Below, one piece after another: positions 14,608 through 29,092 of a stretch of DNA of 64,000 bases; within the stretch, counting starts at the first letter, position 1; each line of letters opens with the position of its first letter. Under the pieces are notes generated by a model. It saw nothing but the letters and a program-made list of their open reading frames with translations, searched no databases and was not told the DNA's origin. The stretch is from Streptomyces sp. NBC_00775. GTDB taxonomy: Bacteria > Actinomycetota > Actinomycetes > Streptomycetales > Streptomycetaceae. A program made the position numbers and the translations under genes. The stretch is from positions 9,362,001 to 9,426,000 of the forward strand of contig NZ_CP108938.1 in NCBI RefSeq assembly GCF_036347135.1, written 5' to 3'.

Positions 14608-15696
14608 TCACGCGGCGGTCGGCACCCCCGCCAGCAGCCGCCTGATGTCCCGTACCGCCGCGCGTCCGGCCCGGTTGGCGCCGATGGTGCTGGCCGAGGG
14701 GCCGTACCCGACCAGATGGATGCGCGGATCGGCGACCGCGCGCGTCGCCTCGACGCGGATGCCGCCGCCCGGTTCGCGCAGCCGCAGAGGTGCCAGATGG
14801 TCGATGGCGGCCCGGAAGCCGGTCGCCCACAGGATGACATCGGCGTCCACGTGACGGCCGTCGTTCCATTCGACGCCGTCGGGCGCGATCCGGTCGAACA
14901 TCGGCTGCCGGTCCAGCACGCCGTCGGCCAGTGCCTGCCGGATCGCGTCGTTCAAGGGCAGCCCGGTGACCGAGACGACACTCTTGGGCGGCAGCCCCTG
15001 ACGGACCCGCTCCTCGACGAGCGCGACAGCGGCCCGGCCGAATTCCTCGGTGAAGGGACCCTCACGGAAGACGGGCGGACGCCGCGTCACCCACGTGGTC
15101 CCGGCGGCGTACGGGGCGATCTCCATCAGATGCTGGGTGCCGGACGCGCCGCCGCCCACGACGACCACCCGCTGTCCGGCGAAAGCTTCGGGACCGGGGT
15201 ACTGCGCGGTGTGCAACTGCCGCCCCCGGAAGGTCTCCTGGCCCGGATAGCGCGGCCAGAACGGCCTGTCCCAGGTGCCCGTCGCGTTGATCAGCGCCCG
15301 CGCCGACCACGTACCGTCGTCCGTCTCGACGAGCAGCCGCCCGCCCTCGCCCTCGCGTACGGCCTTCACCTCGACCGGCCGCCGCACCCGCAGGTCGAAG
15401 GTGCGCTCGTAGGTGTCGAAGTACTCCGCGATGACCTCGGAGGACGGGCGCGCCGGGTCCGCGTCCGTCAGTTCCATGCCGGGCAGGGAGTGCATCCCGT
15501 GCACTTTGCCGTACGTCAGCGAGGGCCAGCGGAACTGCCAGGCGCCGCCGGGACGCGGCGCGTGGTCGAGCACCACGAAGTCCCGCTCGGGCTCGAAACC
15601 GCCCCGCCGCAGGTGAAAGGCGCTGGACAGGCCGGCCTGTCCAGCGCCTATGACGACGACGTCGACTTCGCGCGCTCGTACCCCGGTGTTGTTCAC
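14608..15696 (-). CDS. FAD-dependent NAD(P)-binding oxidoreductase (flavin monooxygenase-like)
   Basis: 362 residues from GTG 15696 (VNNTGVRAREVDVVVIGAGQAG). It has two Rossmann nucleotide sites: VIGAGQAGLSSAFHL for FAD close to the N-terminus, and VVVGGGASGTQHL for NAD(P)H in the middle. A late ATG motif (LWATGFR) is typical of flavin monooxygenase-type enzymes. No substrate can be named. A longer in-frame ORF runs upstream, but that extension lacks similarity to the family. No clear ribosome binding site precedes the GTG. The gene lies next to the sulfonate operon on the same strand, 95 bases downstream of it. Confidence 0.75.
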   Translation of the reverse strand: MNNTGVRAREVDVVVIGAGQAGLSSAFHLRRGGFEPERDFVVLDHAPRPGGAWQFRWPSLTYGKVHGMHSLPGMELTDADPARPSSEVIAEYFDTYERTFDLRVRRPVEVKAVREGEGGRLLVETDDGTWSARALINATGTWDRPFWPRYPGQETFRGRQLHTAQYPGPEAFAGQRVVVVGGGASGTQHLMEIAPYAAGTTWVTRRPPVFREGPFTEEFGRAAVALVEERVRQGLPPKSVVSVTGLPLNDAIRQALADGVLDRQPMFDRIAPDGVEWNDGRHVDADVILWATGFRAAIDHLAPLRLREPGGGIRVEATRAVADPRIHLVGYGPSASTIGANRAGRAAVRDIRRLLAGVPTAA

Positions 15697-18079: not shown

Positions 18080-18835
18080 TCAGGCGGCCTCGGCGGCGGT
18101 GTCGACGCCGAGCCGTTCCAGCAGTGCGGCGCGCAGTGCGGCGAACCGGGGGGCGGCGATGTCACGCGGGCGGTCCAGCTCGACCTCCGTCTCGTACGCG
18201 ATGACGCCGTCGTCCATCACGAGGACGCGGTCGGCGAGCAGTACCGCCTCCTCGACGTCGTGGGTGACCAACAGGACGGCGCAGCCCCGGCGTTGCCAGA
18301 GTTCGCCGACGAGTCGCTGTGCCTTGATCCGGGTCAGCGCGTCCAGCGCGCCGAACGGCTCGTCGAGCAGCAGCAGATCGGGCTCGCGGACCAACGCGCG
18401 GGCCAGCGAGGCACGTTGGGCCTCACCGCCGGAGAGCGTCTTGGGCCAGGCGCCCGAGCGGTGGCTGAGACCGACCTCGGTCAACGCCTGTTCGGCGACG
18501 GCACGTCCGGGCTTGCCGGGCAGACCGAGCAGCACGTTGCGCCACACCTTCTTCCACGGCATCAGCCGGGGTGCCTGGAACGCGACGGCCTTGCGCCGCG
18601 GGACGAGGACGGTGCCCTCGATGTCTCGGTCCAGCCCGGCGAGGATCCGCAGGAGCGTGGACTTGCCGCAGCCGCTGCGGCCGAGCAGGGCCACGAACTC
18701 GCCCGGCCTGACGTCAAGTTGGAGGTCGTCGATGACGGCGCGGCCGTCGAAGGAGCGGGTCAGCCCCGCCACGCGTACGGCCGCGGCGGGGGCCTTCCGG
18801 GCGGTGGTCACCGGCCCGTGAACGTCGGTCGCCAT
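18080..18835 (-). CDS. ssuB: Aliphatic sulfonate ABC transporter, ATP-binding protein
   Basis: 251 residues. Walker A GRSGCGKST at 52-60, Q-loop FQAPRLMPW, signature LSGGEAQR at 134, Walker B LLLLDEP at 154 and the switch His in VTHDVEEA are all present. The family pattern is that of the nitrate/sulfonate/taurine importer ATPases. The start overlaps the end of ssuC by 28 bases. It energises sulfonate import through SsuC. Confidence 0.87.
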   Translation of the reverse strand: MATDVHGPVTTARKAPAAAVRVAGLTRSFDGRAVIDDLQLDVRPGEFVALLGRSGCGKSTLLRILAGLDRDIEGTVLVPRRKAVAFQAPRLMPWKKVWRNVLLGLPGKPGRAVAEQALTEVGLSHRSGAWPKTLSGGEAQRASLARALVREPDLLLLDEPFGALDALTRIKAQRLVGELWQRRGCAVLLVTHDVEEAVLLADRVLVMDDGVIAYETEVELDRPRDIAAPRFAALRAALLERLGVDTAAEAA

Positions 18836-20552: not shown

Positions 20553-20578
20553 CCTGGGTTCGAGTCCCACCCGCCCCA
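20553..20578 (+). tRNA. tRNA 3'-end fragment (T-arm and acceptor half only)
   Basis: The stretch contains CTGGGTTCGAGTCCCAC, a T-arm with the invariant GTTCGA loop, followed by CCGCCCCA, an acceptor-stem 3' half with discriminator base. No anticodon or D arm lies upstream, so it is not a functional tRNA. Fragments like this are left at one end of elements that integrate into tRNA genes (att core). A matching full tRNA is not in the window. Confidence 0.6.
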
Positions 20579-20597
20579 ACTGTGCAGGTCGGCCTCT

Positions 20598-20699
20598 GAG
20601 GAACGAACCCGCGCGGTCGCGACCCGTTACGACAAGAGGGCCTACGTCTTTCACGGGACGGTCACCATCGCCTCGATCCGACTCTGGCTCCGCGCGTGA
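20598..20699 (+). pseudogene. C-terminal remnant of an IS5-type transposase
   Basis: The reading frame ends TRYDKRAYVFHGTVTIASI then RLWLRA and a stop. This is the usual C-terminal tail of Streptomyces IS5-family DDE transposases. Nothing of the catalytic core remains upstream, where the tRNA fragment sits instead. It is a decayed insertion sequence end and marks past mobile-element activity at the border of the accessory stretch. Confidence 0.65.
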
Positions 20700-20712
20700 G
20701 GTTCCCTCGCTC

Positions 20713-21195
20713 CTACTCCAGCATGCGTTCCGCGTCATTCGGGACCCAGGGAAAGGGCACGTCGGGCCACCGTGCAGCGGCCCACGCGTCGAGATCGACA
20801 GCGAGGACGGCATCGATGAAGAGTTGAGGCGGTCGGTAGCCGTGGGCGGTGATGTAGTGCGTGATGAGGAACGGAGCAGCGTAGGCGATGCCGTCCTCGC
20901 CCGGGATCCGCACCTCCCCGTTGCCCGCTGGAGCCAATTCCTCGGGACACAGGTCACACTCGTGCAGCCCCAGGCAGACGTTCATCCACTGGACCTCCTG
21001 AACAGCCTCCAGCTTCTCCACGAACGCCGTGGGGACCGTTCCTGCCGAGTACGGTTTGCCGGCCTCCAGCCACCCGATGTTCAGGCGGGTGTACGCCGGG
21101 CGGTACCAGAGCGTGTAGAAGCCCGACTCCCCGTCCGTGAAGGCATCCTCGTCCTGGTAGTCGTACTCGCTGAGATCTTCGTAGAACACCCGCAC
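20713..21195 (-). CDS. DUF7919-like protein of unknown function
   Basis: About 160 residues. I start at GTG 21195 (VRVFYEDLSEYDY); an ATG at 21243 would add 16 residues. The pattern YEDLSEYDY...LNIGWLEAGKPYSAGTVPTAF...CLGLHECDLC...GNGEVRIPG then YAAPFLITHYITAHGYRPP is the one I recall for DUF7919. The two Cys pairs with the conserved His (GLHECDLC) could bind a metal. No function is known. It sits alone between the transposase remnant and the HxlR gene, in the accessory stretch. Confidence 0.65.
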   Translation of the reverse strand: MRVFYEDLSEYDYQDEDAFTDGESGFYTLWYRPAYTRLNIGWLEAGKPYSAGTVPTAFVEKLEAVQEVQWMNVCLGLHECDLCPEELAPAGNGEVRIPGEDGIAYAAPFLITHYITAHGYRPPQLFIDAVLAVDLDAWAAARWPDVPFPWVPNDAERMLE

Positions 21196-21327
21196 ATCAT
21201 CGCCGCACCACTTCGTTGAGGCCCGCGCGATTCCACGACCCATCGGACACGGCCTGGCGGGTGGGAACGGCTCTCGCCGTGACGGACTCGGCGGGCATAC
21301 CCGGGGCCAAACCCGCGCCCGCCCCCT

Positions 21328-22212
21328 TCAGCGCCCCTCCGCCATCCGCCGTACCACCGTCAGCGCCTCGCGCACTGCCCCCGGGATGTCCGTCACCGGG
21401 AAGCGCGCCAGGCGCACCACGCGTTCGCGGTCCACCACCAGCACCGCCCGCTTCAGCCGCAGTGCCTGCCCGGCGCGGAATACTGGTAGCCGCAGAGCGG
21501 CGGCGAGGCGCAAGTCGACGTCTGAGAGCAGGGTGAAGGGGATGCCCTCCTCGACCGCGAACACCCGCTGCTCGTCGGGGCGTTGAGTGCTCACGCCGCG
21601 TACCTCGGCGCCCGCCGCGCGGAAGTCGTCGTACGCGTCCCGGAACAGCCGGTTTTCCAGCGTGCAGCCGATGGCACCCGGGATGTCGGCCCAGCCGTCC
21701 GGCAACGGGCCGGGGCGACCGGTCGCCGGGTAGCAGAACAGGACGGTGGTCGCGGCCTCGGCCACCGGGTCCAGCGGCTCACCGTCCCGGTGCCCCGGCA
21801 GTTCGAGGCGCGGCAGCCACTCGCCCACCAGGCCCGCCACCCGCCGCGCCTCGGCACTCTCCTCGTCGGCCGTGCCGCTCAGTGAGCCGTCGCCGAGCAG
21901 CCAGCGGTCCGCCCAGTCCTGCATCGAGAGCAGCACGGGCAGCAGCCCCCGTCCGCTCTCCGTCAGTCGGTACTCGTACCGCACCGGGCCGCTCTGATAC
22001 GGAACCTTCTCCAGGACCTCCGCCTCCACCAGGTGCGCAAGGCGCTCGGTCAGCACCTTGCGGGAGATCCCCAACTCCTCCTGGAGCGCGTCGAACCGGT
22101 GGTGCCCGCGTGCGGTCTCCCGCACCAGGAGCAGGCTCCACCAGTCGCCGACCACCGCCGCCGCCTGCGCGATCGCACAGGCGGCGTCCCGCTCGGGCAC
22201 CGACCTGACCAT
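21328..22212 (-). CDS. HxlR-type winged-helix regulator fused to a redoxin-like domain
   Basis: 294 residues from ATG 22212. Residues 10-105 are an HxlR DNA-binding domain (CAIAQAAAVVGDWWSLLLVRE, RFDALQEELGISRKVLTERL, YEYRLTESGRGLLPVL). From about residue 130 the protein continues as a thioredoxin-fold, peroxiredoxin-like domain (LELPGHRDGEPL, TTVLFCYPATG..., DIPGAIGCTLENRLFRD, VRGVSTQ, FTLLSDVDLRLAAALRLPVF). The AhpC-type position reads IPGAIGCTLE, with a single Cys. A redox-sensing repressor is an attractive guess. It diverges from an MFS exporter with a perfect inverted repeat between them. Confidence 0.82.
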   Translation of the reverse strand: MVRSVPERDAACAIAQAAAVVGDWWSLLLVRETARGHHRFDALQEELGISRKVLTERLAHLVEAEVLEKVPYQSGPVRYEYRLTESGRGLLPVLLSMQDWADRWLLGDGSLSGTADEESAEARRVAGLVGEWLPRLELPGHRDGEPLDPVAEAATTVLFCYPATGRPGPLPDGWADIPGAIGCTLENRLFRDAYDDFRAAGAEVRGVSTQRPDEQRVFAVEEGIPFTLLSDVDLRLAAALRLPVFRAGQALRLKRAVLVVDRERVVRLARFPVTDIPGAVREALTVVRRMAEGR

Positions 22213-22272
22213 GGGTCTCCTGTCTTGCGGATACAGCATCCAGCCTTCGAAACCATCTTGCGCCCTGTGGTC

Positions 22273-22289
22273 AGTTCCGGATAGGAACT
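22273..22289. promoter_or_regulatory. Probable HxlR operator
   Basis: Perfect inverted repeat AGTTCC-ggata-GGAACT between the divergent HxlR-redoxin gene and the MFS gene. A further AGTTCC half-site lies at 22315-22320, closer to the MFS start. Spacing and position are right for control of both promoters. Confidence 0.6.
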
Positions 22290-22342
22290 CAATCGCAACC
22301 AAGTAAGTTCCCAAAAGAGACTCGCTGGAGGATGGGCGTCGC

Positions 22343-23599
22343 ATGAGCGAGACACCGACGGTCCCGGAGCACGATCGCCGCAGCACCCACCACGCGACCT
22401 CGCCTCCGACCGTCTTCTGGCGCTACTGGGCCGCTGCCACCGTCAGCAACGCGGGCACCGCCGTCACCGCCCTCGCTCTACCCCTGGTCGCCCTCACAGT
22501 CCTCGACGCCACCGCGCTCCAGGCCGCCCTGCTCGCCGCCGCCGGACAGATCTCCTGGCTGCTGCTCAGCCTCCCGGCCGGAGTGATCGCCCAGCGCGTC
22601 CCGCTCCGCCGCCTCCAGGTCACCCTCGATCTCGTACGGTTCGTCGCCGTCGGATCCCTCCCGCTCGCCTGGTGGCTTGGCCGGCTCAGCTACCCGCACC
22701 TGTTGCTCGCCGCTCTGGTCACCGGCGCCGCGACCGTACTCTTCGACATCGGCAACTCGACCTTTCTGCCCGCCATCGTCCCGGACCGGCAGCTCGCCGC
22801 CCGCAACAGCCTGATGTCCGGCACGCACGCCGTCACCGAGACCGGAGGGCCCTCCGGGGGCGGCCTCCTCGTGCACGCCACGGGCCCGGTCGGCGCGCTC
22901 CTCGTGGACGCGGCCAGCTACCTGCTCTCCGCCGTGCTGCTGCGTACCCTCCCCGAGCGCCGTCCCGCCGCCCGCACCGGCGACGGCGCCCTCCGGCTGA
23001 TCCGCGAGGGCTGGACGTACGTGACGCGGCACCCAGTGATGCTGCCCTGCATGCTCTGGGCCACCGCCACCAACTTCGTCTGCGCCGCCCTGGTCGCCCT
23101 CACACCCCTCTACCTGGTCCGTGAGGCCGGACTGACGTCCGTCCAACTCGGCCTGGTGCTCGCCATGGACGGAATCGGCGCGCTCGCCGGATCCGCCGTG
23201 GCGGTCCGGCTGACCCGGCGGTTCGGCACCGCCCGTGGGGTCGTCGGGACCGCGCTGGCCGGCGGCGCCGCCGCCCTGCTGGCCCCGCTGACCACGTCCG
23301 CAGGCGACGCATACTGGTTCGCCCTGGGCAACGCCGGCTTCGCCTTCGGCGTCGTCATCGGGTCGATCACCACCCGCACCCACCGCCAGACCGAGTCCCC
23401 GCCCGAGCTCCTCTCCCGTGTCATGGCCACCGTCCGCTTCGTCTCCTGGGGCGCCCAGCCGCTCGGCGCCCTCACCGCCGGCCTGCTCGCCACGTACATG
23501 GGGACGCACGCGGCCCTCTGGACGGTATGCACAGCCGCGCTTCTGCCGCCGCTGTACCTGCTCGCGGTCCCGGTGGGCCGCCGCCGGGACTTCGCCTGA
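22343..23599 (+). CDS. MFS transporter, efflux type
   Basis: 418 residues, ATG 22343 behind GGAGGATGG. About 12 membrane segments. The pattern (NAGTAVTALALPLVALTVLDATAL, then FLPAIVPDRQLAARNSL) matches the MFS_3/enterobactin-exporter-like group, which exports drugs and siderophores. The divergent HxlR-redoxin regulator and shared operator suggest it is induced by a redox-active or electrophilic compound. The substrate itself is not readable. Confidence 0.85.
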   Translation: MSETPTVPEHDRRSTHHATSPPTVFWRYWAAATVSNAGTAVTALALPLVALTVLDATALQAALLAAAGQISWLLLSLPAGVIAQRVPLRRLQVTLDLVRFVAVGSLPLAWWLGRLSYPHLLLAALVTGAATVLFDIGNSTFLPAIVPDRQLAARNSLMSGTHAVTETGGPSGGGLLVHATGPVGALLVDAASYLLSAVLLRTLPERRPAARTGDGALRLIREGWTYVTRHPVMLPCMLWATATNFVCAALVALTPLYLVREAGLTSVQLGLVLAMDGIGALAGSAVAVRLTRRFGTARGVVGTALAGGAAALLAPLTTSAGDAYWFALGNAGFAFGVVIGSITTRTHRQTESPPELLSRVMATVRFVSWGAQPLGALTAGLLATYMGTHAALWTVCTAALLPPLYLLAVPVGRRRDFA

Positions 23600-23628
23600 C
23601 GCGGTCCTGGAGTCGGCGTTTAGAGAGG

Positions 23629-23985
23629 TCAGTCCGGCGGCTGGATCACATCAATTGAGCCGCTGCGTTCCATGAACGACTCAAGGGACGCCCGGTTCGC
23701 GGTGGTCAACTCGATCTCGTCTCCGTCCTCATTTCGCAGGAGGACCTTTACAGCGCGGCGCCGGGTGATCCACCGCTCCTGCAGCGACTGCAACGCGTCC
23801 ACCAGCCCGACGATCCCGCCGATCACCGCGAACACTGTGAGCGGATCCACCACCCTGGCACGCGGCCAGCGCCGCACGGACACCCCGTGGCGCGGATCCT
23901 GCAACACGTCCTCGACTGCCCGCACGTCCTCCTCGGCCAGCGAGTGGACCTGCAGCTCGATGGTGATGCTCACAGGTTGTCCCAT
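23629..23985 (-). CDS. Small partner of the CHAT protease, EACC1-like
   Basis: 118 residues. The ATG at 23985 directly follows the TAG of the CHAT gene (TAGATG), so the two are translated together. Layout: a beta-strand start (SITIELQVHSL), a short acidic helix, a central hydrophobic region (FAVIGGIVGLVDALQSL, about residues 52-68), a basic patch (RRRAVKVLL), then a strand with RNEDGDEIELT and a final helix. This resembles the effector-associated constant component (EACC1) proteins encoded beside CHAT and other effectors in actinobacterial conflict systems. I assign it by shape and neighbourhood, not by a firm motif. Confidence 0.55.
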   Translation of the reverse strand: MGQPVSITIELQVHSLAEEDVRAVEDVLQDPRHGVSVRRWPRARVVDPLTVFAVIGGIVGLVDALQSLQERWITRRRAVKVLLRNEDGDEIELTTANRASLESFMERSGSIDVIQPPD

Positions 23986-26637
23986 CTAGTTGGCAACGGG
24001 TTTGTCGAGCGCCGGAGCGCCGAGATAGGAGTAGGCGGCCCAGTTCTCGACCTCGGTCGTTGGCTTCAGTTGTCGCTGAACACGGTTCACCGCCTCCTGC
24101 GGACCGACACCGGCGCCGAGGTGGCCGTAGAGCTCGGTCATAAAGGCCGAGGCCACGTCGTCGTAGATGGGCCACCGGCTGGCTATGATGCCTCGGGCTC
24201 CGGCCTTGATCAGGCTTCCAGTCAGGCCGGCGCACTCGTTCATCGGCCCGTATGAAGTCAGCCCGGAGGAGCAGGCGGAGAGCGTGACGATCGGCGCCTG
24301 CGGGAATCGGACAGCGCTCAGCTCCGCCGCGGAGACGCGCTTCGAGTCACGCTCGTGGTCCGCGTCGAAGTAGAGGAAAGAGCGATCGGGCTCGACCGGG
24401 TCGAAGGTTCCGTGACAGGCGAGGTGGATGATGCTGTATGTGCGGCTGAGTGCGTTCAGCACATCAGCCTTCGTTGCGCGGGTGCCGTCGATGACGTCCA
24501 CATTCCCTGGCAGCAGGCGGGTGATGGCAGCCACCTCCTCGGCTGTCCGGGGCAGGTCGGATCCGCCGTATGCCACCACGAGCGCCGGGGAGGCGCTGCC
24601 ACTGGCCGCGGCTGCGATCCCGGCGAGTTCGCCACCGACTGAGAGCGATGGCAGGTAGCAGATCTCAAACGAGTCCAGCAGCACCGAACCCTCGACCGCT
24701 GTCGCCTCGTACGGCAGGTGGTTGAGCCATCCTGGTGCGCTGATCGCCAACTTCTTGATCTTTGCCGAGCGGAGCAGGGCAGCCAACTCGTCAGTGAAGA
24801 GGTGATTGAGCTGCCGGCACGAGCGTAGGAGATGCCGGGAGCGGAAGACGCCAGGGTCCAGGTTGTGACCCTTGGCGATCCCTATGAGGCGCTCTTCATT
24901 GATGAGCGACTGCCGCGACTCGAACCTCCAGTCGGTGCCGGCGCGGTACAACACGATGGCGGTTATCCACCCTCTGGCGGCCGTAAGAACACAGATTGCT
25001 GTGTCCACGGGCCATCGCGCGAGGTCCAGCCGCTCCAACGCCCGGTCGACCAGCGGGGTCGACGTCGTCGCCTCCGCCACTCGGAGCTTCACCTTGCGGG
25101 CGGCTGCGGTGACTTCCTTGCGTAATCCCTCCGCCGGCCGCGCGGAGGTCGGCTGCCGCAGCCACGCGGGGGGCCTGCCGAGTATTTGGCGGATGAACCT
25201 ATTGCGCGCTGCCGTATCGGCGCGGGCGGCAACGTCCACCGTCGATGCGTATGCATTGCGGAGGTTGGCCGCGCGCGTCGTCTCCAGCGCCTCCAACGCA
25301 GACCGATGCCGTCCGGCCTCCGCGCGCAGACGTGCCAGAGAGTCGAACGCGCCGCAGAATTGGTTTGCGGCGAGGGTAACTGCTGCATTGGTCCGGGCCG
25401 CAAGTAACTCTTGCTGTGCGATGCCGGCGGCGTCCTTCACATACCCCAGCGCCTCATCCCGTCGGCCACGATGCTCACTGAGATCAGCTAGTTGCATCAG
25501 AATCAGGTAAGGATCGCGCATTCGCCGGACGTTGGGAAGCGATGCCAGCAGGTCCTGCTCGGCGGAGGAGGTCCACTCAGCGGCGTCCGGCTGCGTCCTC
25601 CCGCGATTGCGCAGCATGACTGCGGTGGCACGTGACTCTTGTGCACCGGCCCGCATGTGCTCTGGCAGTGCCGGTTCGGCTATGGCCAGGTTCAACTGCC
25701 TGATGGACAAGTCCAGGTCGGCCTCGCTTGCCGAGCCTACTTTGAGGAGGTCCCCCAAGGTATGCCGCACCCGTGCCACCTGGAGTCGCACGTTCTCGGA
25801 GTCATCGCATGACTCCAGGTAGTAGGCCAGTGAGCTCTCTGCGGCCTCTATGCCCATCGCGCGAACCTTGTTGAGCCCGCCAACTACCACCAGCTCAGGT
25901 TGGTTACGAGCCGCCAGACTGTACGCGTCCATCGCGACGTTGTGTTCCAACGCGGCTCTTACGAAGGGCGGATGGTCCCCGACGGTAATCTCCATGGCCT
26001 TGGTCAGCGCCTTCAGGCCGGCCTCGAAGAGGGCCGTGTGCCGGTAGAACTCGTTCAGGTAGACGGCTTCGATATTGGCGATGACCCAGTCGGACGACTC
26101 GGGGTATTCATTGCATGCCTGCAGGCGGTGGGCGAAGCGGATGGCAGGCACCAGATAATTCGGCCCGTCGCTCCTGTACTGCATCAAGCCTTCCAACTCG
26201 GCTGTGATGGCTTGCGCGTCGCTCTCCGGGGCGTGCCCCCAGACATGATCGCGGGTCGCCCCCAGCAGGCTGATGTTCTTGAATCGGCCGGGCAGCCGCA
26301 GGCTCGAGTCGACCAGCACGTACTTGGTGGAACCACACTCGGTGCAGCTGATCGCTTGGAGGATGCCCCTCTGCTCCACGACCCACCGGTGACCGCACTC
26401 GGAACAGCGTAGGTCCATCCGTAAGGCATGGATGACCAGCGACATCCGGCCCCCGTCCTCAGCCGGACACGCCTGACCCTCATAGTCCTTCGGGGTCAAG
26501 AAGTTGACCGCTGGGTTGAATCGCCATTCCCAGCCGCAAGCGTCGCAGCGGAAGTAGGCCTGCGCGTCGAATGACAGCCCGGGAAGCACCTCGGGGTTGA
26601 GGAACTCAGCTGGCAGCAGGTTCGCGAACGCTTCCAC
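23986..26637 (-). CDS. CHAT-domain protease with N-terminal zinc ribbons
   Basis: 883 residues, GTG start at 26637 after a GGGGAG ribosome binding site. The N-terminus has Cys pairs: CDACGWEW at 31-34 with ACPAED at 57, then CSECGHRW at 78-81 with SCTECG at 98-101, looking like two zinc ribbons, the first incomplete. Residues about 130-560 are largely helical and TPR-like. The C-terminal 300 residues form a CHAT caspase-like protease with the catalytic His in HLACHG (about 742) and Cys in VTLSACSSG (about 789). CHAT proteins act in bacterial self/non-self conflict, cutting partner proteins when triggered. The helical region probably senses or scaffolds; zinc ribbons may contact nucleic acid. 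Codon use is less GC-rich than in neighbouring genes. Confidence 0.85.
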   Translation of the reverse strand: MEAFANLLPAEFLNPEVLPGLSFDAQAYFRCDACGWEWRFNPAVNFLTPKDYEGQACPAEDGGRMSLVIHALRMDLRCSECGHRWVVEQRGILQAISCTECGSTKYVLVDSSLRLPGRFKNISLLGATRDHVWGHAPESDAQAITAELEGLMQYRSDGPNYLVPAIRFAHRLQACNEYPESSDWVIANIEAVYLNEFYRHTALFEAGLKALTKAMEITVGDHPPFVRAALEHNVAMDAYSLAARNQPELVVVGGLNKVRAMGIEAAESSLAYYLESCDDSENVRLQVARVRHTLGDLLKVGSASEADLDLSIRQLNLAIAEPALPEHMRAGAQESRATAVMLRNRGRTQPDAAEWTSSAEQDLLASLPNVRRMRDPYLILMQLADLSEHRGRRDEALGYVKDAAGIAQQELLAARTNAAVTLAANQFCGAFDSLARLRAEAGRHRSALEALETTRAANLRNAYASTVDVAARADTAARNRFIRQILGRPPAWLRQPTSARPAEGLRKEVTAAARKVKLRVAEATTSTPLVDRALERLDLARWPVDTAICVLTAARGWITAIVLYRAGTDWRFESRQSLINEERLIGIAKGHNLDPGVFRSRHLLRSCRQLNHLFTDELAALLRSAKIKKLAISAPGWLNHLPYEATAVEGSVLLDSFEICYLPSLSVGGELAGIAAAASGSASPALVVAYGGSDLPRTAEEVAAITRLLPGNVDVIDGTRATKADVLNALSRTYSIIHLACHGTFDPVEPDRSFLYFDADHERDSKRVSAAELSAVRFPQAPIVTLSACSSGLTSYGPMNECAGLTGSLIKAGARGIIASRWPIYDDVASAFMTELYGHLGAGVGPQEAVNRVQRQLKPTTEVENWAAYSYLGAPALDKPVAN

Positions 26638-26884
26638 TGTGCTCCCCGATCAAGCCTCGACGACCACCAACGCCAACATAGTGCCGGATACGGGCATGAA
26701 GTGCCAGGAAACCCCGCGCCCGTACGAGACTGTCAATTACCAACCACAGTCGGGCACTTCCTCCCGTGAGCGCGGAATCGGTGTACACCACGGCTCGCCG
26801 CCCAGCCATGTCTGATCAAGCCCTTCATCAGACGGCGCGCGACGGGGCCGACGCCGTTTGAGCCCACCCGTGGACACAACGGAC

Positions 26885-29092
26885 TCAGGAGACGGGCTGG
26901 GGCTCCTTCTGGTCCGTCGCCGGAGCCTTCTGAAGGCTGGTCCCCTCGATGTCGAGGTCGGGCAGGATCCTGTCCAGCCAGGCCGGCAGCCACCAGGCGC
27001 CCCGGCCGGCGAGGGCGAGCACCGCGGGTACGAGCGTCATGCGGACGGCGAAGGCATCGATGGCCACTCCGACGGCCAGGGCGAACGCGATGGGCTTGAT
27101 CAGGGAGTCGTCCAGCGGGAAGAACCCGGCGAAGACAGTGAACATGATCAGCGCGGCCGCGGTCACGACGCGCACGCTGTGACGTGCGCCGTCGATGACC
27201 GACTGGCGGGCCCGCCGGGTGTGGGCCCATTCCTCGCGCATCCCGGACACGAGGAACACCTCGTAGTCCATGGCCAGTCCGAAGAGCACGCCGATCAGGA
27301 TGATCGGCAGGAAACTGCCGACGGGGCCGCTGTGCGGCACGTCGAGGACGTCGGCCAGCCAGCCCCACTGAAAGACGGCGACGACGAGGCCGAGCGAGGC
27401 GCCCACCGAGAGCAGGAAGCCGACGGCGGCCTTGACGGGGATGACCAGAGATCGGAAGACGACCATCAGCAGGAGCAGGCTGAGGCCGACGACGATGGCG
27501 ACGAAGGGCAGCAGGGAGTCGCTGAGCCGGTTGGAGACGTCGATGTTGACCGCGGTGGTGCCGGTGACTGCCACAGAGGCACCCGTGGTTTCACGGATGT
27601 CGGGCGCGGCCTTACGGATGTCGCCGACGAGTTGGCCGGTGCGGACGCTGTCCGGGCCGGAGGCGGGCAGGACGGTGATGACGCTCTGAGCCGGGTCGCT
27701 GGTGGGCTGGGGTGGCAGGACGGCCTTGACGTTCTTGAGGGTCGACAGCTTCTGGGCCACCTGGGCGCCGGCCTGTGCGCTCGCGGCAGCCGTGCCGTGC
27801 TTGGTCTCGGCCAGTACGAGGAGCGGGCCGTTGAAGCCGGGACCGAACTTGTCGTTGATCGTGTCGTAGGCCTTGCGCTCGGTGGAGGCGTGCGGGGCCG
27901 AGCCGTTGTCGGGAAGAGCCAGGCGCATGTCCGTGGCGGGCAGGGCGAGGGTCACCAGGATGCCCGCCACCGCGAGCACCGTCAGCAGAGGCTTGGCGAT
28001 GACCCGCTTGGTCCAGCGGGTGCCCATGGTGGTGCGGTCGGTGGAGCCCTCGGTGTCGGCGGCCCGCCGGGCGGCGCGGCTGCCGGGCTTGGGGATGAGC
28101 CGGGAGCCGGCGAATCCCGCGATGGCGGGGACGAGGGTGATCGCGGCCAGCACGGCGATGAGTACGGCTCCGGCGGCCCCGAGACCCATGGTGGTCAGGA
28201 ACGGGATGCCGATGACGCTCAGTGCGGCGAGCGCGATGATCACGGTGGTGCCGGCGAAGACCACGGCGCTTCCGGCCGTGCCGGTGGCCAGCGCGATGGA
28301 TTCCTTGGGGTCGGTTCCGCGGGCCAGTTGCTGTCGGTGGCGGGAGAGGATGAACAGGACGTAGTCGATGCCGACGGCCAGGCCCAGCATGAGGGCGAGC
28401 GTGACGGCGGTGGAGGAGATGCTGGCCGCGGGCGCGAGAGCGAGCAGCCCGGCCAGTCCCACCGCCACACCGATCAGCGCGGGCAGCAGCGCCATGCCGG
28501 CGGCCGGCAACGACCCGAACGTGACGACCAGGACGAGCAGGGCCACGGCCACGCCGATGATCTCCGACGGGCCGACGTGGACGCCTTTGCTGCTGTAGAC
28601 GGACCCGCCCACCGACGTCTTCAGCCCGTTCTTCTCCGCCGCCTTGGCCATGTCCTCGATCGCGTCCACCGATGAGGTACGGACCTGAGCGTTCTGCACG
28701 GGGTACTGGAGCTGGATGATCGCCGTGGTCCGGTCGGCCGAGACGGCGCCGGAGGTGCTGGGGTCGACGACGTCGCTGACCTGGGGAGCCTTCTCGGCTT
28801 CCGCCACGCTCTGGGCGATGGTCGCGGCGTAGGGGGCTTCGGTGACCTGGTGGCCCTTGGGAGCGGTGAAGACGATCTGGGCGCTCGCGCCCGATGCTTC
28901 CGGAAGGGTCTTGCTCAGACTGTCCAACGCACGCTGGGACTCGGTGCCGGGCACTGCGAAGCGGTCGTCGAGCTTGCCGCTGAAGAGGCTGACGCACGTG
29001 ATGAGCGCGGCCAGGACGAAGAGCCATATACCCAGGACGAGCTTTCGGTGCCGGTAGGCGCTGTGGCCCAGCCGGTGGAGCAGGACGGCCAT
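26885..29092 (-). CDS. MMPL-family (RND) transporter
   Basis: About 735 residues, ATG 29092 (MAVLLHRLG) preceded by AGGGAG; an in-frame ATG at 29140 is less likely. It has the repeated RND plan: one membrane segment, a large outside loop (FSGKLDDRFAVPGTESQRALD), then a membrane block, and the same again after residue 390. The motifs GIDYVLFILSRHRQQL and GLAMDYEVFLVSGMREEW carry the proton relay Asp-Tyr residues. Such proteins export lipids or drugs using the proton gradient. The upstream region carries an operator also found in front of the TetR gene. Confidence 0.85.
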   Translation of the reverse strand: MAVLLHRLGHSAYRHRKLVLGIWLFVLAALITCVSLFSGKLDDRFAVPGTESQRALDSLSKTLPEASGASAQIVFTAPKGHQVTEAPYAATIAQSVAEAEKAPQVSDVVDPSTSGAVSADRTTAIIQLQYPVQNAQVRTSSVDAIEDMAKAAEKNGLKTSVGGSVYSSKGVHVGPSEIIGVAVALLVLVVTFGSLPAAGMALLPALIGVAVGLAGLLALAPAASISSTAVTLALMLGLAVGIDYVLFILSRHRQQLARGTDPKESIALATGTAGSAVVFAGTTVIIALAALSVIGIPFLTTMGLGAAGAVLIAVLAAITLVPAIAGFAGSRLIPKPGSRAARRAADTEGSTDRTTMGTRWTKRVIAKPLLTVLAVAGILVTLALPATDMRLALPDNGSAPHASTERKAYDTINDKFGPGFNGPLLVLAETKHGTAAASAQAGAQVAQKLSTLKNVKAVLPPQPTSDPAQSVITVLPASGPDSVRTGQLVGDIRKAAPDIRETTGASVAVTGTTAVNIDVSNRLSDSLLPFVAIVVGLSLLLLMVVFRSLVIPVKAAVGFLLSVGASLGLVVAVFQWGWLADVLDVPHSGPVGSFLPIILIGVLFGLAMDYEVFLVSGMREEWAHTRRARQSVIDGARHSVRVVTAAALIMFTVFAGFFPLDDSLIKPIAFALAVGVAIDAFAVRMTLVPAVLALAGRGAWWLPAWLDRILPDLDIEGTSLQKAPATDQKEPQPVS

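Follow-up and report, generated by a model that had tools for sequence, protein, structure and literature searches.

System 4 of Kaur et al. 2020 (PMC7159879) is described in the text of that paper as a predicted two-gene conflict system. It combines a 5' gene for EACC1 with a 3' gene whose product carries a caspase-superfamily domain at its N-terminus and, at its C-terminus, domains of up to 50 kinds. EACC1 is proposed there (section 33), as a prediction and not a demonstrated activity, to sense at the membrane and to activate the caspase. The word CHAT is absent from the text of the paper, supplements aside, and its 'caspase superfamily' could in principle include CHAT. Here we analysed a pair of adjacent genes for a CHAT protease and an EACC1-like small protein in a stretch of 64,000 nucleotides from Streptomyces sp. 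NBC_00775 (contig NZ_CP108938.1, positions 9,362,001 to 9,426,000), which is called the window. The host genome of 11.1 Mb is a single contig, with the window at 9.36-9.43 Mb.

Three further groups of described proteins come close to the pair. Csx29, the TPR-CHAT protein of Craspase in the type III-E CRISPR system, is built of helical repeats followed by CHAT, and its active site is reported to be misordered until target RNA binds the Cas7-11 partner. CATRA systems are caspase-dependent ternary systems. Like the window pair, the CATRA and EACC2/TRADD-N systems have a caspase-family peptidase, and they are outlined in PMC8195603 as predicted conflict systems with constant components; no family so named was found among the Pfam or NCBIfam matches of either window protein at E<=0.1. 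DdvA is, by the title of PDB 8rot, a CHAT-domain transmembrane anti-sigma factor, whereas the large protein of the pair has no hydrophobic 19-mer with a mean above 1.58.

The gene pair

The pair consists of two genes on the reverse strand:

gene 1: 23986..26637, reverse strand, intact open reading frame (ORF) of 883 residues, zinc-ribbon / helical-repeat / CHAT protease
gene 2: 23629..23985, reverse strand, intact ORF of 118 residues, EACC1-like small protein

The TAG of gene 1 (23988-23986) abuts the ATG of gene 2 (23985-23983) with zero gap, and the two ORFs of the sequence-only reading of this DNA, with a stop codon directly followed by a start, were confirmed at these coordinates. Gene 1 starts with GTG and has a Shine-Dalgarno-like GGGGAG immediately 5' of it. 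In the alignment, the majority of the gene 2 homologues start opposite codon 5 (GTG, 23973-23971), and therefore the true start of gene 2 may be 12 nucleotides downstream of the ATG, which would give a protein of 114 residues. The pair is a real, intact and rare two-gene module; the identity of its parts is well supported, and its function is hypothetical.

The large protein

By its residues and domain matches, the product of gene 1 is a cysteine protease of the CHAT family in which the His/Cys dyad is intact. It has the following parts:

zinc-ribbon-like module, residues 31-101: 26335..26547, reverse strand, with C31, C34, C57, H70, C78, C81, C98 and C101
helical-repeat (TPR-like) middle, residues about 137-540: 25018..26229, reverse strand, paired helices in the AlphaFold2 model
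CHAT protease domain, residues 605-873: 24019..24825, reverse strand, PF12770, E 8.6e-49
catalytic His742 codon: 24412..24414, reverse strand, invariant in 20 aligned CHAT proteins, aligned with Csx29 H615
catalytic Cys789 codon: 24271..24273, reverse strand, invariant in 20 aligned CHAT proteins, aligned with Csx29 C658

The CHAT domain scored 167 bits against a cut-off of 24, and H742 and C789 lie in the motifs HLACHG and SACSSG, where the sequence-only reading had placed the His and Cys of the domain. The seven cysteines of the N-terminal module form the C-x2-C pairs 31/34, 78/81 and 98/101, plus C57, and are accompanied by H70. Their zinc-ribbon-like spacing is kept in the window protein and in its relative from a second Streptomyces genome, G122. 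The zinc-binding cysteine pairs that had been claimed are thus present as residues, but the Pfam zinc-ribbon-type matches of both proteins were weak and stayed below the curated cut-offs, as did the NCBIfam matches of the window protein; the best such Pfam match covers residues 65-109. In the AlphaFold2 model the predicted local distance difference test (pLDDT) value is below 50 for residues 1-33 and 35-72, and the module has no confident fold. The long helical middle was seen as paired helices in the same model, with pLDDT values of about 65-95 at residues 200-460 and low values before 180 and at 465-525. TPR chains turned up among the fold matches of the model, but Pfam gave no TPR match in the protein. 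With PADLOC, the large protein matched BovA (E 8.3e-9) over the shared CHAT part only; the other matches were weak, among them Cas12f (0.0063) over the zinc region.

The layout of the gene 1 product, helical repeats plus protease, resembles that of Csx29 and separase as judged from sequence and model, and both were among the top matches of the whole-model fold search. The catalytic His and Cys take the same positions as in Csx29. The window protein differs from it by the zinc-ribbon-like head and the EACC1-like partner, and it scored 24.5 against the Csx29 model cut-off of 300 bits. A Cas7-11 gene was not recognised among the Pfam-scanned neighbours, with no search aimed at Cas7-11 made.

The likeness to Csx29 brings in a regulatory explanation. 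The pair could be a housekeeping or stress protease switch in which a metal, redox or envelope signal, perceived by the two proteins, leads to the cleavage or sequestration of a regulator, as with Csx29 and its sigma-factor inhibitor Csx30, or as DdvA may act. We regard such a switch as unlikely, since the Pfam scan of a subset of window and G122 neighbours showed neither a sigma nor an anti-sigma gene next to the pair, and the very sparse, site-shifting distribution fits an accessory conflict module better.

The small protein

The product of gene 2 contains the central hydrophobic region that the sequence-only reading had noticed:

hydrophobic segment with Gly-Gly, residues 45-64 (VVDPLTVFAVIGGIVGLVDA): 23794..23853, reverse strand, best 19-residue mean hydropathy 1.89

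In six members of the small-protein family the best 19-mers reach 1.75-2.13 and include the glycine pair; the corresponding stretches of 32 canonical EACC1 proteins have a mean of 1.67. The EACC1 of System 4 is marked by one TM helix that bears a patch of small residues. The residues D47, P48, T50 and G56 are invariant across seven sequences. The AlphaFold2 model of the small protein (mean pLDDT 68, low confidence) shows the hydrophobic stretch as a strand and a helix of an alpha/beta fold, and a fold search with this weak model gave nothing at E<=0.001.

Several comparisons link the small protein to EACC1. All seven family members match a single Pfam family at E<=0.1, EACC1 (PF19953), with scores of 14.5-21.1 bits (15.4 for the window protein; cut-off 23.6). 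The alignment of the family to the 32 EACC1 stretches of the genus by hhalign gave a probability of 90 and an E value of 1.5e-6 over 36 columns, and 40 column shuffles reached at most 1%. When 1705 frames from 38 CHAT loci were ranked by a profile of the same 32 stretches, the small gene of G122 came first and that of the window second. In the opposite direction, the small-protein profile was run against 296 genomes of the phylum and 266 of the genus and found seven matches beyond the own genome and G122. Five of these (in G965, G120, G001, G229 and G033) are small genes directly 5' of a C14-type caspase frame, which in G001 is split in two, and four of the five exceed the Pfam EACC1 cut-off (27.8-40.6 bits). 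The two others were rejected as chance matches, one to an unrelated membrane protein (G985) and one to a long frame without sense (G156).

When the small family and the caspase-linked genes were aligned, they had in common the hydrophobic stretch, a W..RR motif and then a hairpin with a DGDE-ELT-like sequence. The tree groups the small family with the five caspase-linked genes (ultrafast bootstrap 100, midpoint-rooted; FastTree 0.78); the support for the small-protein family as a clade of its own is uneven (61 and 0.99). From Pfam, hhalign, profile search, alignment and tree, the view that the small protein is a diverged EACC1 relative is supported, and the kinship to EACC1 suggested by the sequence-only reading holds.

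Comparison with System 4

For a comparison, canonical EACC1 loci were sampled, 32 of 33 being readable (L082 was dropped, as no ORF was found). At 29 of the 32 a C14-type caspase frame adjoins within about 1.5 kb. The CHAT domain of the window was matched at none of them within this distance in a search with a single sequence at E 1e-4, which distant CHAT domains could escape.

System 4, which is mainly actinobacterial, and the window pair have in common two genes, a small EACC1-type protein with a glycine-bearing central hydrophobic segment and a caspase-superfamily peptidase with a variable extra part. They differ as follows. The EACC1 gene is 5' in System 4, whereas in both the window and G122 the 5' position is taken by the protease gene. 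The protease is mostly C14 in the System 4 loci sampled and CHAT in the pair. It is N-terminal in System 4 but C-terminal in the window protein (605-873 of 883), and the extra part is a variable C-terminus in the former and a zinc-ribbon-like N-terminal head plus repeats in the latter. By its reversed gene order, its CHAT type of protease and the C-terminal position of this domain, the pair falls outside System 4; on these sequence characters it is a variant of this system and not a member.

No description of a CHAT protease that carries a zinc-ribbon head, or of CHAT together with EACC1, was found in a search of the open-access literature, with the supplements that hold the full gene lists of Kaur et al. 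outside this search. The occurrence of an EACC1 relative beside CHAT, in reversed order, suggests that EACC1 regulates caspase-fold proteases more generally.

Conservation and distribution

The large protein was searched in 392 genomes of the genus, and 257 had some match. Among the matches listed, all save those in the own genome and G122 are confined to or near the CHAT domain, and the full-length protein occurs in one of the 391 other genomes, G122. Its G122 relative aligns over residues 4-876 with 40% identity. H70 and all seven cysteines of the N-terminal module are retained there, in a region that is only 36% identical (39/109), and the conservation of the cysteine pairs among homologues, on which the sequence-only reading had made its system reading depend, was observed in this one relative only. 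The window protein has nine further cysteines, five of which (549, 607, 741, 789 and 802) are shared with the relative, four of them inside CHAT. The next gene in G122, 39 nucleotides downstream, encodes a small-protein relative of 119 residues with 36-37% identity. The small protein was thus found beside a CHAT gene elsewhere, namely in the sole other genome with the full-length large protein. Neither of the two outcomes that would have overturned the system reading by its own terms, loss of the cysteine pairs or of the small gene next to CHAT, was observed in this one relative.

A profile of the N-terminal part (residues 1-380) found only the own genome and G122 among 395 relatives. In 394 genomes of the class, a set that overlaps with these relatives, it found the own genome and a chance match in G590, which was rejected as it lies in another reading frame across unrelated cell-wall genes. 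In the protein database, five further homologues of the small protein were found at 57-83% identity, from contigs of 553-3099 bases. The database searches with the CHAT protein scored only the 8000 candidates with the most words in common with it and returned CHAT-domain matches only, without recovering the query itself, and are uninformative on rarity.

These data bear on the explanation that the pair is a decaying or neutral accessory element without present function. Its rarity and its place next to a synteny break (described below) would fit decay, but both ORFs are intact, the active-site and N-terminal cysteine residues are kept while the identity over the entire protein of 870-880 residues has fallen to 40%, and the small protein has five more homologues at the identities given above. 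We consider this explanation very improbable.

Proposed mechanism and alternatives

Our leading account, held tentatively and at somewhat less than an even chance, is that the two genes form a protease module that varies the EACC1-caspase theme, with a latent CHAT protease, a sensing head and a licensing partner that act in abortive defence or altruistic death. By analogy to Csx29, the CHAT protease would be made in a latent form and switched allosterically. The zinc-ribbon head, perhaps with the repeats, may sense an invader-derived or stress ligand, for example nucleic acid or a protein; zinc ribbons are described at the N-terminus of DO-GTPases in other predicted conflict systems in the text of PMC7159879. 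The EACC1-like partner would hold the protease close to the membrane, or bound in an inactive complex, and would license it. Once triggered, CHAT would cut one specific protein, the partner or a protein of the cell, and the cleavage would halt growth or switch a response. Judged by the kinship to predicted conflict systems, defence against phage would be the likeliest purpose. With a Csx29-like active site and one small partner, the pair offers a minimal test case for the activation of such a protease.

A number of results weigh against this account. Csx29 is reported to control its sigma-factor inhibitor, not cell death. The membrane placement of the small protein is doubtful, as the low-confidence model splits the hydrophobic stretch. 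None of the seven family members reaches the Pfam EACC1 cut-off of 23.6 (best 21.1), and the small gene of G965 (L053), next to a Pfam C14 caspase, has no Pfam EACC1 match. The conserved gene order rests on two genomes. The large protein gave no match to phage in tblastn, and the small-protein profile found none in IMG/VR. No defence gene was recognised by PADLOC among the 10 window and 8 G122 ORFs scanned, and the small protein had no PADLOC match. Among 72,556 plasmid records, 144 match part of the large protein; none covers 80% of it, and none matches the small protein.

The plasmid result also concerns a toxin-antitoxin-like unit, in which CHAT would act as the toxin and be directly inhibited by the small protein, or the roles would be swapped, and which would be selected for mobility and persistence and not for defence. 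Two tightly coupled genes for a large enzyme and a small protein, their patchy presence and the lower GC content at third codon positions (GC3) of gene 1 are in line with such a unit. GC3 is 0.79 in gene 1 and 0.84 in gene 2; the selected neighbouring ORFs range from 0.82 to 0.93, and therefore only gene 1 is clearly lower. The less GC-rich codons claimed for both genes were accordingly borne out for gene 1, but gene 2 lies within the neighbour range. The plasmid records weigh against such a unit. In addition, the relatives of the small protein adjoin C14-type caspases in the other order as a 'constant component' in the terms of PMC7159879, which is untypical of an antitoxin. We judge this explanation to be quite unlikely, a little more so than the regulatory switch.

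Genomic surroundings

An MFS gene converges on the pair from one side, and an MMPL gene on the same strand as the pair ends 247 bp upstream of gene 1. From this arrangement we infer that the pair is perhaps a transcription unit of its own.

presumed promoter region between the MMPL ORF and gene 1: 26638..26884, reverse strand, 247 bp, no gene assigned

The mechanically called ORF 26733-27368 overlaps this region, and a promoter scan upstream of gene 1 found no sigma-70-type consensus. The ORF at 18080-18835 matched mad3 and others in PADLOC (E 3.2e-30) and was rejected as a defence gene, as Pfam assigns it to ABC_tran, a shared ATPase domain.

The surroundings of the pair in G122, where it is flanked by a PhzC-PhzF family gene and a heme oxygenase gene (Pfam), differ from those in the window. 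In genome G011, examined for a clean empty site, the right flank of the window matches from 26925, and a separate contig carries the left flank (to about 20,560). This separation of the flanks therefore establishes a synteny break only and does not demonstrate an insertion. The window from about 20560 to 26925 is a variable stretch with DUF7919, HxlR/peroxiredoxin, MFS and the CHAT pair.

The sequence-only reading had also placed a tRNA fragment and a transposase remnant near the pair, and neither was confirmed. Rfam found no tRNA at E<=1 at 12-30 kb of the window. The sole gene that ARAGORN called in the window is a tRNA-like one at 14801-14884 on the forward strand (tRNA-Cys, anticodon aca), 9 kb from the pair and unsupported by Rfam. 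For 26630-26950 no plasmid DNA match was obtained, with no further transposase search made.

Possible recurrence of CHAT with EACC1-like genes

The genes downstream of CHAT were inspected at 79 loci: L003-L030 (28), 40 from further down the search listing, 9 of the own genome, G122 and L109. Of these, 78 were readable (L040 ran off) and L109, found via its partner, was left uncounted, which leaves 77. These loci were chosen by similarity to the window CHAT domain or by genome and are not a random sample. The downstream ORFs considered had at least 60 residues, a GC3 above 0.75 and a start within -40 to +150 nucleotides. An EACC1-like ORF (E<=1e-4 in the small set) was present at 3 of the 77 loci, the window, G122 and L037.

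The L037 partner, in the own genome, has 173 residues and follows 1 nucleotide behind a TPR-CHAT gene for 1155 residues whose product has no zinc-ribbon match. Its sole Pfam match is EACC1 (E 0.012, below the cut-off). One of 100 other genomes searched, G081, contains a relative of this partner at 35% identity, 34 nucleotides behind a CHAT gene for 1163 residues, and this relative has neither a Pfam nor an EACC1-profile match. A profile of the two partners reached a probability of 46 with EACC1 (40 shuffles, at most 3) and of 2, no match, with the window small-protein family. The second CHAT operon has a partner that appears weaker in EACC1 likeness; its relation to EACC1 is suggestive, and a recurrence of the CHAT and EACC1-like pairing is possible.

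One might speculate further that operons in which CHAT comes first and an EACC1-like gene follows 3' make up a branch of their own, so far unrecognised, within the caspase-family immunity of bacteria. In this branch a separase/Csx29-like repeat-CHAT protein would have replaced the C14 caspase, with inverted order, at least twice: in the zinc-ribbon type with the head as sensor and in the TPR-CHAT type of 1155-1163 residues with a partner of 161-173 residues (L106, L109). We hold this to be conceivable, and more doubtful than the module proposed for the window pair.

The second operon, at L106 (own genome, G000:C1:7148000-7156500) and L109 (G081), has three genes. They encode a helical-looking protein of 380-399 residues, with TPR matches below the cut-off in the L109 copy, a CHAT protein of 1155-1163 residues with TPR matches and a protein of 161-173 residues that contains a hydrophobic segment and ends in an EACC1-like tail.

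Other genes beside CHAT and caspase genes

At L053 (G965) the distant EACC1-like gene and the C14 caspase are preceded by genes for a subtilisin-like protease and a hydrolase-like protein, named by inspection of their sequences, and the locus is possibly a larger conflict locus. At L005, L007, L009 and L019 a gene for a CRCG-motif protein of 168-176 residues overlaps the CHAT stop codon; the L007 copy has no Pfam match, and the protein possibly represents another family of CHAT partners. A protein of 222-235 residues with a MTEIRLHDVEL-like start is encoded 3' of the CHAT genes at L024, L029, L115, L118, L129 and L138, with an overlap of the CHAT stop in five of the six loci and no Pfam match for the L029 copy. 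At L023 the CHAT stop is overlapped by the gene for a protein of 189 residues with a weak CBS match and an ACAECGH motif.

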